A stretch of 39,378 nucleotides of DNA from Planctomycetota bacterium. GTDB taxonomy: Bacteria; Planctomycetota; UBA8742; JACQVU01; JANLHZ01. Below are positions 19,387 through 33,100 of this stretch, piece by piece. The notes under the pieces are model-generated. The model did not search any database and was not told the origin of the DNA. It saw only the letters and a list, made by a program, of their open reading frames with translations. The translations under genes and the position numbers were made by a program. Numbering within the stretch: position 1 is the stretch's first letter; each line of letters opens with the position of its first letter. The stretch lies in NCBI GenBank assembly GCA_024653775.1, contig JANLHZ010000111.1, positions 1-39,378 of the forward strand, given 5' to 3'.

Positions 19387-20121
19387 TCACTCCTCCGGAG
19401 CGAACGGCATCGCGGCGCTGGTAGCGATCTGTCTCGCGAGTTTTCGCATCGCGTCTGCGAGCGCGGCTTCGCGGGAAGAAGCACTGACGTTGACGTCGCT
19501 TTCGGATACGAATTCGCGATCCCTGAAAATCGCTTCGCCGCGGGGACCGAAGTAGTTCGCGATCGCAACGACGCGCACGCGGACGTACGCTGGGACGTCG
19601 CGGCTTTCCTCGACGAGCGCGCTTTCCTCGACGTCGGTTATCGCGACCTTGAGCGTCGCGTCCGCCGCCGCCTCCCCCACCGACGCGGATAGCTGCGGCA
19701 TCCTGCGTAGTTCCGCGCCTATGGATTCGTAGAGGATTTCCTCGACGCCTCTTCGGACCGGGATTTCGAGATTTTCCACGGGGAAGACGTACACGGACTC
19801 GACATCCGCAAGGCCGCCGCCACCGAGGTTGTAGCCGCAGGAACCCGCAAAGAGCGACGTAATGATCGAGACAAGGACACCCGCGAAAATAGTCGCGCGG
19901 CCTTTCAGAGGATCGAGACCGCTCCCTCCGCCGACACCCAGGTTCCGGCGTTCTGAGGCTGTCGATTTATTTATCCTTCTCCCCACGGGAGAAGGTGGCC
20001 GAAGGTCGGATGAGGGAATTATTATTTCAAGCGACGTCCGATGTTCTCCCTCCCCCGGAGGGAGAGGGATGAACTCGTAATTCGTAATTCGCAATTCGTA
20101 ATTACTTGGCGTATTCGACAA
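19387..20121 (-). CDS. LptE-like outer-membrane lipoprotein with a repeat-derived leader
   Basis: The core, from about residue 78, has a lipoprotein-like signal (ATIFAGVLVSIITSLFAGSCGYNLGGGG, probable Cys95). It continues with ESVYVFPVENLEIPVRRGVEEILYESIGAELRR, matching the LptE-like family that helps LptD insert lipopolysaccharide into the outer membrane. The first ~70 residues are translated from dispersed repeats (heptamers ATTCGTA and two palindromes) and are not protein-like. No ATG exists between them and the signal peptide, so the native start was probably replaced or is a CTG/other codon; I give the longest open frame from ATG 20121, which overlaps the rny stop by 20 bases. Start is uncertain; the core call is reasonable. 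Confidence 0.65.
   Translation of the reverse strand: MSNTPSNYELRITNYEFIPLPPGEGEHRTSLEIIIPSSDLRPPSPVGRRINKSTASERRNLGVGGGSGLDPLKGRATIFAGVLVSIITSLFAGSCGYNLGGGGLADVESVYVFPVENLEIPVRRGVEEILYESIGAELRRMPQLSASVGEAAADATLKVAITDVEESALVEESRDVPAYVRVRVVAIANYFGPRGEAIFRDREFVSESDVNVSASSREAALADAMRKLARQIATSAAMPFAPEE
19975..19995. repeat. Dispersed palindrome (GGGAGAAGG type)
   Basis: CCTTCTCCC (19975-19983), loop CAC, GGGAGAAGG (19987-19995) is a perfect 9-bp stem, followed by the tail TGGCCGAAGGTCGGATGAGGG. A shortened relative stands at 25792-25810 (TCCTTCTCCCGACGGGAGA). Such palindromes are dispersed repeats; this one lies inside the translated leader of the LptE-like gene. Confidence 0.7.
20046..20064. repeat. 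Dispersed palindrome (CTCCCTCC/GGAGGGAG)
   Basis: CTCCCTCC (20046-20053), loop CCC, GGAGGGAG (20057-20064) is a perfect 8-bp stem lying between the other palindrome and the heptamer run in the leader of the LptE-like gene. Purine/pyrimidine strand bias is strong. No function can be assigned. Confidence 0.6.
20073..20100. repeat. Heptamer tandem repeat (ATTCGTA type), four units
   Basis: ACTCGTA ATTCGTA ATTCGCA ATTCGTA, period exactly seven, ends one base before the stop codon of rny. The same unit recurs three times at 22937-22957, just before the cysteine desulfurase gene. Both sites touch a gene boundary. Confidence 0.85.
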
Positions 20122-22936: not shown

Positions 22937-22957
22937 ATTCGTAATTCGTAATTCGTA
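22937..22957. repeat. Heptamer tandem repeat (ATTCGTA), three units
   Basis: Three exact ATTCGTA units end eight bases before the ATG of the cysteine desulfurase-like gene, where a ribosome binding site would be expected. None is visible. The rest of the gap 22781-22936 holds a GTGGTGAGTGGGAAGTGGTGAGT stretch and nothing gene-like. Confidence 0.85.
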
Positions 22958-22964
22958 ATTGGCT

Positions 22965-24305
22965 ATGCGAACCATCTATCTCGATTACGCAGCGTCCGCG
23001 CCGCTTTTCCCCGGCGCGGCGGAAAGGTTCGCAGAACTTGCGGCGGAAGTTCGCGGGAATCCGGATTCGCGGCACTCGGACGGAAGACGCGCAAGAGAAA
23101 TCCTCGAAAACGCGCGTGCGAGACTCGCGGCGATTCTCGACGTCCCCGCAGCGGATTTCTATTTCACAAGCGGCGCGACGGAATCGAACAATCTCGCGAT
23201 CAAAGGCCTTCCCGGCGCCGGAAGGATCGTTACAACGAGAGCCGAGCATTCGTCCATTCTCGGCCCGGTTTTCAGCCTCGAAGAAGCTGGGTGGCAGGCA
23301 ACGTATCTGGACGTGGACGAAAGCGGGCGCGCCGTGCTTCAGGGAGCAGGTGGCAGGGAGAAGGGAGCAGGTGGCAGGGAGCAGGGAGAAGGGAGCAGGG
23401 AGCAGGGAGAAGGGAGCAGGGAGCAGGGAGAAGGGAGCAGGGAGAAGGGAGCAGGGAGAAGGGAGCAGGGAGAAGGGAGAAGGGAGCAGGGAGAAGGAGT
23501 TAAGTCACTCGATCCTCGCCCCTCGATCCTCGATCCTCGCCCCTCGATCCTCGATCCTCGCCCCTCGATCCTCGATCCTCGATCCTCGATCCTCGATCCT
23601 TCGATTGTTGCTTTATCTTTAGCGAACAGCGAAACCGGCGCGCTTTCGGACGTGGATGCGGTCGCGCGCGCGTTTCCGGACAGCGTGGTCTACATCGACG
23701 CGGCGCAGGCGTTCTGCAGGATCGAGGTTCAGCCGCGGAAGCTCGATGCGGATATGCTCGGCGTGTCGTCTCACAAGGTCGGCGGACCTGCGGGAATCGG
23801 CGGACTGTACGTTCGCTCCGGATTGCGGCTCCGCCCGCTCCTCCACGGCGGCGGGCAGCAGCGCGGAATTCGCCCCGGAACCGAAAACGCTATCCTCGCG
23901 GCGCTCTTTTCAGACGCTGCGGAGTATACGCTTTCATGGTTCGAAAGCCTTCCACGGTACAGAAGGCCGATGCTCGAGGCGCTTGCCGGGAGCGGGCTAG
24001 ACTTTCGCGTGAACACGCCGTTGAAAGCCGCGCCGCACATTCTGAGCGTGTCGTTTCAAGGGTTTTCCGGGCGTGCGATAGCGGACGGACTCGATAAACT
24101 CGGCGTATCGGTTTCGACGGGAAGCGCGTGCTCGGAACAAGGCGAATCGCCATCGCACGTTCTGCTTGCAATGGGACGGACGGAAGACGAAGCCCGGAGC
24201 ACGATTCGTCTTTCATTCGGTCCTGGAATTTCGAGAGCGGACGTGGACGATGCAATAAAAAAGGTGATCGAGGTTGTTAGAGAACTCGGAAGGATCGAGG
24301 ATTAA
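22965..24305 (+). CDS. Cysteine desulfurase-like aminotransferase (NifS/IscS class) with an 86-residue repeat insertion
   Basis: A PLP enzyme that would take sulfur from cysteine for Fe-S cluster or thio-cofactor assembly. Landmarks: YLDYAASAP (5-13), TSGATESNNLAIKG (68-81), RAEHSS (92-97), ANSETGA, IDAAQAF, the PLP lysine Lys271 in SSHKVGG, and the catalytic Cys389 in STGSACSEQG. Residues 127-212 are low-complexity repeats ((R)EQGEGS... then SILDPRP...) translated from two heptamer arrays, 258 nt, exactly 86 codons, so the frame is kept. Without them the protein is 360 residues, near family length. All catalytic motifs survive. I use ATG 22965; TTG 22959 is in frame. The Mrp-type ATPase downstream suits an Fe-S role. 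Confidence 0.85.
   Translation: MRTIYLDYAASAPLFPGAAERFAELAAEVRGNPDSRHSDGRRAREILENARARLAAILDVPAADFYFTSGATESNNLAIKGLPGAGRIVTTRAEHSSILGPVFSLEEAGWQATYLDVDESGRAVLQGAGGREKGAGGREQGEGSREQGEGSREQGEGSREKGAGRREQGEGRREQGEGVKSLDPRPSILDPRPSILDPRPSILDPRSSILDPSIVALSLANSETGALSDVDAVARAFPDSVVYIDAAQAFCRIEVQPRKLDADMLGVSSHKVGGPAGIGGLYVRSGLRLRPLLHGGGQQRGIRPGTENAILAALFSDAAEYTLSWFESLPRYRRPMLEALAGSGLDFRVNTPLKAAPHILSVSFQGFSGRAIADGLDKLGVSVSTGSACSEQGESPSHVLLAMGRTEDEARSTIRLSFGPGISRADVDDAIKKVIEVVRELGRIED
23342..23495 (+). repeat. Heptamer array GGGAGCA/GGGAGAA, 22 units
   Basis: Twenty-two consecutive 7-bp units by my count, made of GGGAGCA and GGGAGAA with two GGTGGCA variants near the 5' end. It lies inside the cysteine desulfurase-like gene, where it encodes Gly/Glu/Arg/Gln-rich sequence. 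Because the unit is seven bases, gain or loss of one or two units would shift the reading frame; three units would not. Confidence 0.97.
23509..23599 (+). repeat. Heptamer array TCGATCC/TCGCCCC, 13 units
   Basis: Thirteen consecutive 7-bp units by my count, TCGATCC with three TCGCCCC variants, separated from the first array by 13 bases. It encodes the periodic SILDPRPSILDP. A two-unit trace (TCGATCCTCGATCC) stands at 6134-6147, next to the copied HEAT-gene tail. The two arrays and their spacer total 258 bases. Confidence 0.97.
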
Positions 24306-24414: not shown

Positions 24415-25590
24415 ATGCCCGTTACGGAAATTGACGTGCTCGACGCGATCGCCGGCGTGACTCTCGAAGGGCACGATCGCGACCTCGCTCAGAGCGGACT
24501 AGTTAAGAACATCGTCGTTACAGGCGGTGCGGTTCGTCTGGACGTCATCCTTCAGAGAAAAGAAGACCTCGAAAGCGGCGTGCTAAAGACGATCAAATCG
24601 AGGATCGAGGCGATTCCGGGAATTCACGGAGTCGAAATCGGCGTGATGGGCGCAGCCGCGCCGGGGCACCATCACGATCACGGGCACGATCACGGGCACG
24701 ATCACGGGCACGACCACGACCAGGGACAGCAACGCGCGCCGCAGAAGCAGCAGGAGCTGATGTCGGGCGTCAAGCACATAATCGCGGTCGGCGCGGGCAA
24801 GGGCGGAGTCGGGAAATCGACCGTCGCTGTAAACCTCAGCGTCGCGCTCGCAAAGCGGGGCTTCAGCGTCGGACTCGTCGACTTCGACATCTACGGTCCG
24901 TCGATCCCGACGATGCTCGGTCTTCGCGGCCAGCATCCGGACATTATCGAGCGAAAAGAATTCACCGGACAGCGTGAGGGACACCAGCCCATGAGTCCGG
25001 AGCTTACGATAATCCCGCTCGAAACCCGCGGCATAAAGGTGATGAGCATCGGATTCCTGACGGAGCAGGAGGACCAGCCGGTGATCTGGCGCGGTCCGAT
25101 GATCCACGGCGCGGTGAAACAGTTTCTCGGGCAGGTCGAATGGGGAAAGCTCGATTTCGCGATTCTGGACCTTCCTCCGGGGACGGGCGACGTTGGGCTT
25201 TCGATCGCGCAGTCCATCGGAATCACGGGTTCGATCGTGGTTACAACGCCGCAGAACGTTGCGCTCGCGGACGTCCGCAAGGCGGTCAACATGTTCAGGA
25301 CGCTTAAGATCCACACCATCGGCGCTATCGAGAATATGAGCTACTACGTCAGTCCCGTAGACGGAAGCGTCGATTATATTTTTGGCAAGGATGGCGCGAA
25401 GAAGATGTGCGAGGAGATGGGGATTCCCCTACTCGGACAGATTCCGATAGAGAAGGACGTCTGCATTCTCGCCGACGACGGCCGGACGCTGTTCGACGAC
25501 GACTCGCGGCAAAGGTCTTCGTTCGTGAAGGCGATGGACGAGGTCGTAACCGGACTCGTCCGAAGGCTTAACATGGCCGACCGGAATTGA
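24415..25590 (+). CDS. Mrp/ApbC/NBP35-type P-loop ATPase with His-rich linker, CXXC motif absent
   Basis: A 391-residue protein. N-terminal MIP18/DUF59 domain (about 1-80), a histidine-aspartate linker (HHHDHGHDHGHDHGHDHD, 85-102), then the ATPase domain with VGAGKGGVGKST (126-136), GLVDFDIYGPSIP and LDLPPGTGDV. Family members carry and insert Fe-S clusters, usually bridging a 4Fe-4S cluster between subunits with a CXXC motif after ENMSY. Here that site reads ENMSYYVSPVDGS: Ser313 and Asp316 replace the cysteines. The His-rich linker, uncommon in the family, could bind metal instead. The gene follows the cysteine desulfurase-like gene by 109 bases, with GGAG before the ATG. Confidence 0.93.
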   Translation: MPVTEIDVLDAIAGVTLEGHDRDLAQSGLVKNIVVTGGAVRLDVILQRKEDLESGVLKTIKSRIEAIPGIHGVEIGVMGAAAPGHHHDHGHDHGHDHGHDHDQGQQRAPQKQQELMSGVKHIIAVGAGKGGVGKSTVAVNLSVALAKRGFSVGLVDFDIYGPSIPTMLGLRGQHPDIIERKEFTGQREGHQPMSPELTIIPLETRGIKVMSIGFLTEQEDQPVIWRGPMIHGAVKQFLGQVEWGKLDFAILDLPPGTGDVGLSIAQSIGITGSIVVTTPQNVALADVRKAVNMFRTLKIHTIGAIENMSYYVSPVDGSVDYIFGKDGAKKMCEEMGIPLLGQIPIEKDVCILADDGRTLFDDDSRQRSSFVKAMDEVVTGLVRRLNMADRN

Positions 25591-30144: not shown

Positions 30145-33100
30145 CTATTTCGAAACCTTGGTGATCCTGCCGCTGAACCGCAGTTTCCGGAACTTCGCAA
30201 GAATCTCCTCCGCCTCGTCCTTCTGAACGTCTTTCAGCAGCGGAATGACGCTACGTTTCACAAGACTCTGCGCCTTGTCCTTCGCCATCGAAAGTTCGTT
30301 CACCATAAGATCGACCGCCTGACCCTGCTTGTCGGACGGAATCTTCGAAAGGAACAGATTGAATCCGCCGTCGCCGGAAGCTGCTGAAGACGAAGCGCCC
30401 GAAGGCTTGAAACTCTCCTGCGGTTCGTCCGCGTCGAGATCGAGGCTCATTTCGTCCGCTTCCTCGCCCGATAGAAGTTTGACGCTGCCGGAATCCTCCG
30501 GAGTCTTCGCCAAACCCACCGGAGGCGCCGCGGGCGGGGCCTTCGCCTTCGTTTTCGGCTCCGGCTCCTTCGGCTCGCCATCGTCGTCCGCGCCCAGATC
30601 GAATTCGTCCACGGAATCGATGCCGTCCGCGAAGGGATCTTTCTCCTCTTCGTCTTCTACCGGCTTCACGAGCGCTCCGAGATCCTTCGCGCTGAGAATG
30701 TCCTCGACGGAAAGGAACGCGGTGTCGCCCGGCGCGGGACCGTTTTCGTCCCCGGCTTCGAGGTCGCCGCCTCCGTCGGAGGGCATCCAGTCGTCTTCGT
30801 CATCCGCAACCTCGAACTGAAGCTCTTCCGGCTCGTCGGTCTTCTTCTTCTTTTCGCTCTTGTCCTTTTTCTTCTTCTTGACCGAAGTGTCCTTTTTCTT
30901 CGTTTTCAGTTCCAGGGCCGGCGGGACGCGCTTCGTCTTTTTCGACTTACCCTTGATCTCGATCTCGTCTTCCTCCGACTCGATCTCGATGTCGTCGTCC
31001 ATGGCCTCCAGAGGTTCCGGGGCGGGTTCCACCTTCTTCCCAGTGGACTTCTTCCCCACTTTCGCGATGCCGGGCTTCGCGGCGCCTGCTTTCGCGGGAG
31101 GAGTGAGTTCGACTTCGATTTCTTCCTCGATCTCCAGAGCTGCGTGGGGAGCGGTTTTCTTCTTCTTTTTCTTCTCTTCCTTCTGGGCCGGCGGTGCCAC
31201 GGGTATGGCCGCGTGCTTCTTCGCTGCGGGCTGCTGCGGCTGCGCGACCTGAGGGATCTGTTTCTTTGCCGCGGGCTGCTGCGGCTGCGCGGGCTGCTGG
31301 ACCTGCTTCTTCGCTACGGGCTGCGCGGCTTTTTTCCCCTCTGGAGATTGCGCCTGATACTGTACCTCCCGCTTGGGCGGCGGTTTTCCGTGCGCGTACG
31401 CCCGTGCGCTCCCGGTCCAGGGCTTCAGCGTGTCGTCCTCCCTCGGTTCCTCTGGTTTCGCCTGCTGATCCACCTGCTTCGCGACGAAATGCTCCCCCGA
31501 CTCGGATTTCTTGAAGTCGAGCTGGGCGCCGTCGCTGATTTCGAGCAGCGGGCTTCTGCCCCGTCTGACGTTTATCTGCGGATCGCTGTAATTTCGCGCG
31601 GACACCGTCCATGGTTCGAGGTCCGGCTCTCCTCCCGAATGTGTCTCCACCGGCGAATCCTCGAAAGTGCCGCTTTCCTCGAAGGCTTCCATTTCCGCGT
31701 CGAAATCGTCCTCCGACAGATCGAAGTCGCCCATCGCGAATCCCCGCGGAGGCTGCGCATCCTGCTTCTTCGGCGCGATCTCGGCTTCGCCCGTTTGTGA
31801 AGGTGAGGCGAACGCGTTAATGTCGATGTCGTAATCGCCCAGACCCGCGATTCCATCTGCTCCTTCGAGTTCCTCCGCGAACGCCTCGACCGCTTCCACG
31901 ACTTCTTCCGCCTCCACCTCGATTACCGACATAGCGTCGTCGTAATCGTCCATACCGGAAACTGCGTCGTCTTCGATCGCCGCCATCGCGACTTCCGCTT
32001 CGTCGTCGTCCTCGATAATCGCCGCGATTACCTCGTCCTCTTCTTCGTCTTCATCGAAGGCGACCGCCGCGGAGATTATCGACTCGTCGTCGTCCTCTTC
32101 GATTTCAGCGATAGCGAACGCGGCTTCGACTTCGACCGGATCCGCGACCGCCGCGGCCTTCGGGGCTTCATCCCGCTCCGAGGGAAGTTTGTAGTTGCTC
32201 GACATAATCGCTTCGAGCGCGTCCATTTCCTCGTCGTCTACAAGATCGACGAGCGAATCGACCTCGTCGAGTTCCGCAGGCATAACTTCTATCGCCTCCG
32301 GAACGATCGCCTCCGCGACCTGGGCGGCTGAATCCGGAGGCGGGACGGGCGCTCCGGTCATCGCGGGAGTCACCGGCAGGGCTGTTGCGATTGCCCCGCC
32401 TGATTCCGAATACTCCAGATCGCTTAGCTCGTCTTCGCTGAAAAGGTCCGGAGCGGCTTTACCGTCATCCGTATCGGGAGACGCAATCGCGGCGGGAGCC
32501 GACGCGACCGCGGCCTTCGCCGACGCCTCCGCGGGCGCTTCGATCGCGGAGGTCTGCTTCTTCTTTTTCTTCGGCTTTACGAGCGGCTCCGGCTCCGACG
32601 TCTTCTTCCCGGTCATTCCGAGGGTTACTGCCGCGCCGAGGGTCGCGGGCGCTGGCTCGGGCGCCTTCGGCTCTGGCTTTTTCGGCGCGAGCGCATCGAG
32701 GTCGGAAAAATCCACGCCGAGATCGAACGCGAGCGTGTCCTGCTTGTTTTCGCTGGGCGCGATCCCGAAGGCGCTCAGGTCGACGACGTTCACAGTCGTA
32801 TCCATCCCGGAGATTGCGTCCTTCAGTTTGAGTTCCTGATCGAAATGATCCCCCTTCGACGCGGCTTCGCCCACGAGCTTGATTTCGTCCGGGAAAAGCG
32901 ACTTGCGCTTCGGTTCCGGCTTTACTTCCTCTTCCTCGAAGTAATCCTCCTCGTCTTCGAGTTCTTCCATCTCTTCGAGGTCGTCCTCCTCCTCATCATC
33001 CTGGCTGTTATCGAGAAGGAACGTCTCCGCGACTTCCGGCTCGCTCGGTGCGATGAGGTCCTGCGGGAAGAACTCTTCCTCGTCGATGACCGGCGCGGAG

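Follow-up and report, generated by a model that had tools for sequence, protein, structure and literature searches.

How does a cysteine desulfurase gene come to be read without a break through two arrays of 7-bp units, given that genes are expected to be cleared of tandem repeats whose unit length is not divisible by three? The window, i.e., the whole 39,378-nucleotide stretch analysed here (contig JANLHZ010000111.1 of assembly GCA_024653775.1, a Planctomycetota bacterium), raises this question in a NifS/IscS-type gene, and the genome around it, a 5.42-Mb MAG in 331 contigs (96% complete), allows it to be placed in a wider context. Features of the window are collected in Table 1.

Table 1 Heptamer arrays and neighbouring genes in the window
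Feature	Position	Strand	Remarks
TCGTAAT heptamer array	20075..20103	.	At a gene boundary; belongs with the other heptamer repeats
ATTCGTA heptamer array	22937..22960	.	Ends 4 bp before the desulfurase ATG
NifS/IscS-type cysteine desulfurase ORF	22965..24305	+	446 codons from ATG, open through both arrays; Aminotran_5 on either side
Heptamer array 1	23342..23495	+	22 units GGGAGCA/GGGAGAA/GGTGGCA
Spacer between arrays 1 and 2	23496..23508	+	13 bp; TAA in the +2 frame stops some slipped frames
Heptamer array 2	23509..23599	+	13 units CTCGATC/CTCGCCC, phase TCGATCC; 21-bp higher-order period
Mrp/ApbC-like P-loop gene, His-rich linker	24415..25590	+	ORF and GKGGVGKS motif; directly downstream of the desulfurase

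Two arrays within one desulfurase reading frame

The count given by a sequence-only reading of this locus, 22 and 13 heptamers that together with a 13-bp spacer make 86 codons, was confirmed: the segment (23342-23599, 258 bp) is open in the frame of the desulfurase gene. Array 1 (TRF score 225) consists of 11 GGGAGCA, 9 GGGAGAA and 2 GGTGGCA units, has 20 GGG tracts on the coding strand with four non-overlapping G-quadruplex motifs, and is translated into a Gly/Arg/Glu/Gln-rich peptide. Array 2 (TRF scores 145-172) holds 10 CTCGATC and 3 CTCGCCC units when read in the phase 23508-23598, which is equivalent to the tabulated one, and encodes SILDPR(P/S) repeats. Few adjacent units of array 1 are identical (lag-1 identity 0.14) because the unit variants are mixed, and the 3' end of array 2 has five identical units in a row. 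At lag 3 (21 bp, in frame), identity is 0.58 in array 1 and 0.90 in array 2 (shuffle p 0.021 and 0.013, uncorrected and from few arrays), and a higher-order period of this length is absent from most of the intergenic arrays examined; its occurrence in both arrays is suggestive, but weak, as a sign of growth filtered by frame.

Since seven equals one modulo three, all three frames read a heptamer array as the same seven-codon cycle, and if this cycle is free of stops every frame is open and the array can be translated. A change of frame is thus punished only by the unique flanks and the spacer. In simulated slippage, the gain or loss of three units in either array was neutral, a net gain of one unit in array 1 always ended at the spacer TAA, and other shifts met a stop just after array 2 or further downstream, with slipped products truncated at about 172-228 or 363-384 residues. 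The earlier proposal that the gene survives only changes by multiples of three units holds for each array alone and fails for the pair, where opposite changes (-1/+1 and +2/-2) compensate to full length.

Pfam Aminotran_5 was matched on the left of the arrays over profile positions 1-128 (60.9 bits) and on the right over 140-369 (96.3 bits) in a genome search, the superfamily match of the protein reaches 157 bits (cut-off 21.5), and among solved structures its best relatives belong to the IscS/NifS-type cysteine desulfurases. The equivalog match is split because the arrays interrupt it, and the equivalog cut-offs are missed (TIGR03402, 227 vs 531 bits; TIGR02006, 191 vs 643 bits). The part left unmatched at the arrays corresponds to profile positions of about 128-139 and to residues 126-137 of A. 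fulgidus IscS. The two matches are separated by ~12 residues in relatives and by ~88 in the window protein. Comparison with homologues lacking the arrays had been suggested beforehand, and an alignment with seven homologues from the phylum found the insert absent from all of them and the arrays in the place of about 8-12 residues after the strand ending in GRAVLQ. As these residues of a conserved segment are missing, the event was a replacement and not a clean insertion; the earlier view of an interrupted loop was right about the location inside the gene and missed the loss of native residues.

Both the PLP lysine (SSHK, K269) and the catalytic cysteine (GSACS, C387; numbering from 22971) are invariant in the alignment and kept in the window copy, just as read before, and so are most other invariant residues. 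No stop or frameshift was found across the 446 codons (a TTG at 22959 is a possible alternative start), and under a codon model trained on the sample the two halves of the gene have coding scores of 0.23 each per codon (genome mean 0.24). The second Asn of the NNExG motif, the PLP-contacting Asn155 of E. coli IscS, is replaced by Ser.

A check for a second cysteine desulfurase was positive, with two more IscS/NifS-type genes in the genome (C105 and C293). C105, with 426 codons of open frame and, by inspection, an adjoining Rrf2-type regulator, looks like the housekeeping copy; it shares the NNExG Asn with the seven relatives, and C293 has Gly there. At columns that are near-invariant in the seven homologues, the window copy deviates in 31%, C105 in 19% and C293 in 40%, compared with 12-24% for the homologues themselves. 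The picture is that of a faster-evolving, less constrained paralogue that has stayed open and coding-like in both halves. Just upstream of the start codon of the NifS-like gene C293 (G000:C293, stretch L004, 2597-2740), compound arrays of GGGGTTA, GGGAGCA and AATTCTT fill the space.

The Mrp/ApbC-like gene downstream of the window desulfurase would be in keeping with an Fe-S context. This gene contains a 12-bp coding repeat of its own, translated as a His-rich (HDHGHDHG) stretch at 24667-24719, and an imperfect 45-bp tandem repeat at 31214-31330 runs antisense to a 1297-codon ORF, in its linker.

A genome-wide heptamer family, mostly between genes

Tandem repeats were counted by a lag scan in 1.70 Mb of the genome, part of which had been picked for holding arrays. 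Period 7 gave 96 arrays and every other period from 4 to 15 at most 9; in a 300-kb subset that had been taken irrespective of arrays there were 17 period-7 arrays against 0-2 for other periods, and therefore the dominance of period 7 also holds in an unbiased sample. After merging, 87 heptamer loci were present in the 1.70-Mb sample, and the arrays of the desulfurase are members of this set of ~90. The period is constant and the unit sequences vary (GGGAGCA, CTCGATC, AATTCTT, AATTCGT, AGTAGTC, AAATCTG and others). The pattern GGGAGMA recurs on several other contigs of the genome. In a search of 59 relatives for three unit patterns, GGGAGMA was found in 0, CTCGMYC arrays in 2 and AATTMKT arrays in 2 genomes; for GGGAGMA across GTDB genomes, the matches listed come mostly from cyanobacteria (Moorena, Okeania, Nostoc, Anabaena, Brasilonema), with others scattered over further phyla. 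Two possible origins were rejected, i.e., array 1 as a local duplication of native codons alone, its unit having many other genomic loci, and common ancestry of the array and the gene family, the relatives being without the insert.

With the sample-trained codon model, a single coding frame was seen on both flanks of 13 of 78 arrays (17%), compared with 744 of 1500 random sites (50%; Fisher p 4e-9). The desulfurase arrays thus do not stand apart from a heptamer family that extends over the whole genome and lies mostly between genes. Two of the 13 same-frame arrays have stop-containing units and no ORF reading through; the other 11 are read through in seven ORFs, all in frame, namely the window desulfurase, a D-Ala-D-Ala-ligase/GNAT fusion, a cytochrome c554-type protein, a large acidic protein (four arrays), a radical-SAM/SPASM protein, PurH and an ABC ATPase/permease fusion (two arrays). 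An eighth read-through protein, PMT-like in its first part and TPR in its second, runs in frame across the end of contig C21 (L110) and the start of contig C5 (L111), which share a 45-bp exact overlap inside the array. Nine same-strand arrays with frame-shifted flanks lie, as judged by eye, between apparently separate genes, and no genes split by arrays were found in the 1.70-Mb sample. Read-through arrays in linkers carry an ascertainment effect, because at such a place a broken frame would give the appearance of two genes. Arrays within a conserved enzyme domain were found in two cases, the window desulfurase and the AICARFT domain of PurH; in the latter, the array occupies the place of native residues at nearly equal length.

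The PurH gene (stretch L194, G000:C288, 14108-16456, minus strand) has further peculiarities: its AICARFT array has the unit GGGAACA, and the part between MGS and AICARFT holds, in frame, a transposase domain of the IS200-like/Y1 (TnpA-REP) type with REP-like palindromes (GGACCGCGGACGTCCTCGTCCGC) on either side. In the large acidic protein (stretch L177, G000:C175, 3390-7910), a 1507-codon ORF, at least four heptamer arrays are translated into NYELRITNYEL and KSEISNLKSEI repeats. Known enzymes encoded by other genomes from the GTDB scan likewise contain in-frame arrays, i.e., an NRPS of Brasilonema sp. CT11 (L235), an NRPS with three arrays (L303), a Faecalibacter glycosyltransferase (L217), and ThiO-ThiG and a LeuA-like protein (L318).

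Switch, decay, artefact or tolerated segment

We consider it probable that a member of a dispersed, STRR/long-SSR-type heptamer family settled in a tolerant desulfurase paralogue, where selection has preserved the frame. Heptanucleotide arrays, with a fixed period and many unit sequences, would have spread in the lineage mostly between genes; some would have arisen or landed in the faster-evolving desulfurase copy, displaced about 8-12 residues and then grown, presumably by slippage, with frame-breaking lengths removed by selection. The outcome would be an 86-residue, low-complexity surface segment, probably disordered, in an enzyme that is probably still folded and may retain residual activity. 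The change of the NNExG Asn to Ser and the missing part of a conserved segment would count against this explanation. The harmless insertion that the sequence-only reading had entertained as its second choice comes nearer to this than a switch does, with the difference that native residues were replaced.

The same two losses, together with the faster divergence and the two further desulfurase genes, are what might be expected of a dispensable paralogue decaying into a pseudogene and still in frame by chance, which in any single case has a probability of 1 in 3. This course of events appears unlikely to us, as 446 codons have remained without stop or frameshift, both halves score as normal coding sequence, and Lys, Cys and most invariant residues are retained. 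Rather unlikely, and a shade more so, is a phase-variable switch, in which slippage by one or two units would shift the frame, truncate the protein and toggle sulfur transfer in part of the population. Simulated slippage does truncate the product, and intragenic heptamers are a proven switch in neuO of E. coli K1 (PMC13001214) and also switch the hmw genes of H. influenzae (PMC2651432). A purpose-built switch is argued against by the mixed units of array 1, by a genome-wide family that mostly avoids genes, and by the fact that every read-through array found is in frame, including the one in the housekeeping gene purH. A neuO-type switch would look similar in one genome, and nothing here supports it specifically.

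It is very improbable that array 1 serves as a regulatory G-quadruplex, with the G-rich coding strand folding in DNA or mRNA to tune transcription or translation. Its GGG tracts and motifs would permit such folding, and G-quadruplexes are formed in vitro by oligonucleotides of comparable Xanthomonas and Nostoc heptamer repeats (PMC4692102), but neither array 2 nor the majority of the other unit types in the genome can form them, and therefore G-quadruplexes cannot explain the repeat family. The least probable explanation is an assembly artefact, with short reads unable to span the arrays and a true unit number, or even a junction, that differs. Eight sampled contig ends lie inside heptamer arrays, i.e., the assembler breaks on them, and 258 bp probably exceeds one short read, so that a wrong unit number is possible; however, each flank encodes one half of a desulfurase, with no shift of frame between them, and both clearly belong to one gene, array 1 can be partly resolved through its unit variants, and in-frame arrays recur at other loci.

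A genome with in-frame arrays in conserved enzymes offers a measure of frame selection on repeat growth and of the tolerance of enzymes for low-complexity inserts. It also calls for caution in annotation, as Ser-Arg-Glu-Gln-Gly-Ala peptides found elsewhere can be translated heptamer DNA and not evolved domains. We propose, as a doubtful generalization, that heptamer arrays are a general source of new in-frame segments, which would find their way into conserved enzymes, take the place of surface elements and lengthen by 21-bp steps while selection acts on the frame. Were this true, the genome would serve as a natural experiment on how inserts are tolerated, and spare copies such as this desulfurase might also switch frame at the population level.

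Relation to known repeat systems

Dispersed repeats that sit in frame in protein-coding genes at tolerated positions are also known from the palindromic elements of Rickettsia; the in-frame, dispersed state is common to both, and the window arrays differ in being tandem heptamers. The arrays of the desulfurase belong to the dispersed heptanucleotide SSR/STRR phenomenon of Calothrix, Nostoc and Xanthomonas, which includes the cyanobacterial long SSRs and the GGGAATC and GGGGA(C/T)T families of Xanthomonas and Nostoc (PMC4692102; see also PMC4679880). Shared features are the constant 7-bp unit, dispersed copies, G-rich members and a mostly intergenic, partly intragenic location; array length is variable in the known families (PMC4692102) and may be so here. 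In the Nostoc/Anabaena genome studied, 68% of the repeats of one heptamer family are intergenic and hence roughly a third intragenic (PMC4692102), so that intragenic heptamer repeats are already a known kind. Unlike in those systems, many unit sequences coexist here in one genome, and two dissimilar arrays adjoin inside a conserved enzyme domain, where they replace native residues.

The constant-size, variable-sequence tandem repeats of Subirana and Messeguer, with units of 20-21 or 52 nt (PMC8161180), are similar in that length is conserved and sequence varies between arrays of one genome; they differ in unit size, as the search of these authors shows 7-nt units only as doubled 14-nt repeats (PMC8161180). 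A parallel in frame logic is neuO of the E. coli K1 prophage CUS-3, where multiples of three units give the ON state (PMC13001214). As in neuO, a heptamer array lies within an ORF and its unit number modulo three decides whether a full-length product is made. However, neuO, a phage-borne gene for capsule modification, has one single-unit array at its 5' end, and its switching has been demonstrated (PMC13001214), whereas the desulfurase has two mixed-unit arrays in the middle of a gene for a metabolic enzyme, known from one genome.
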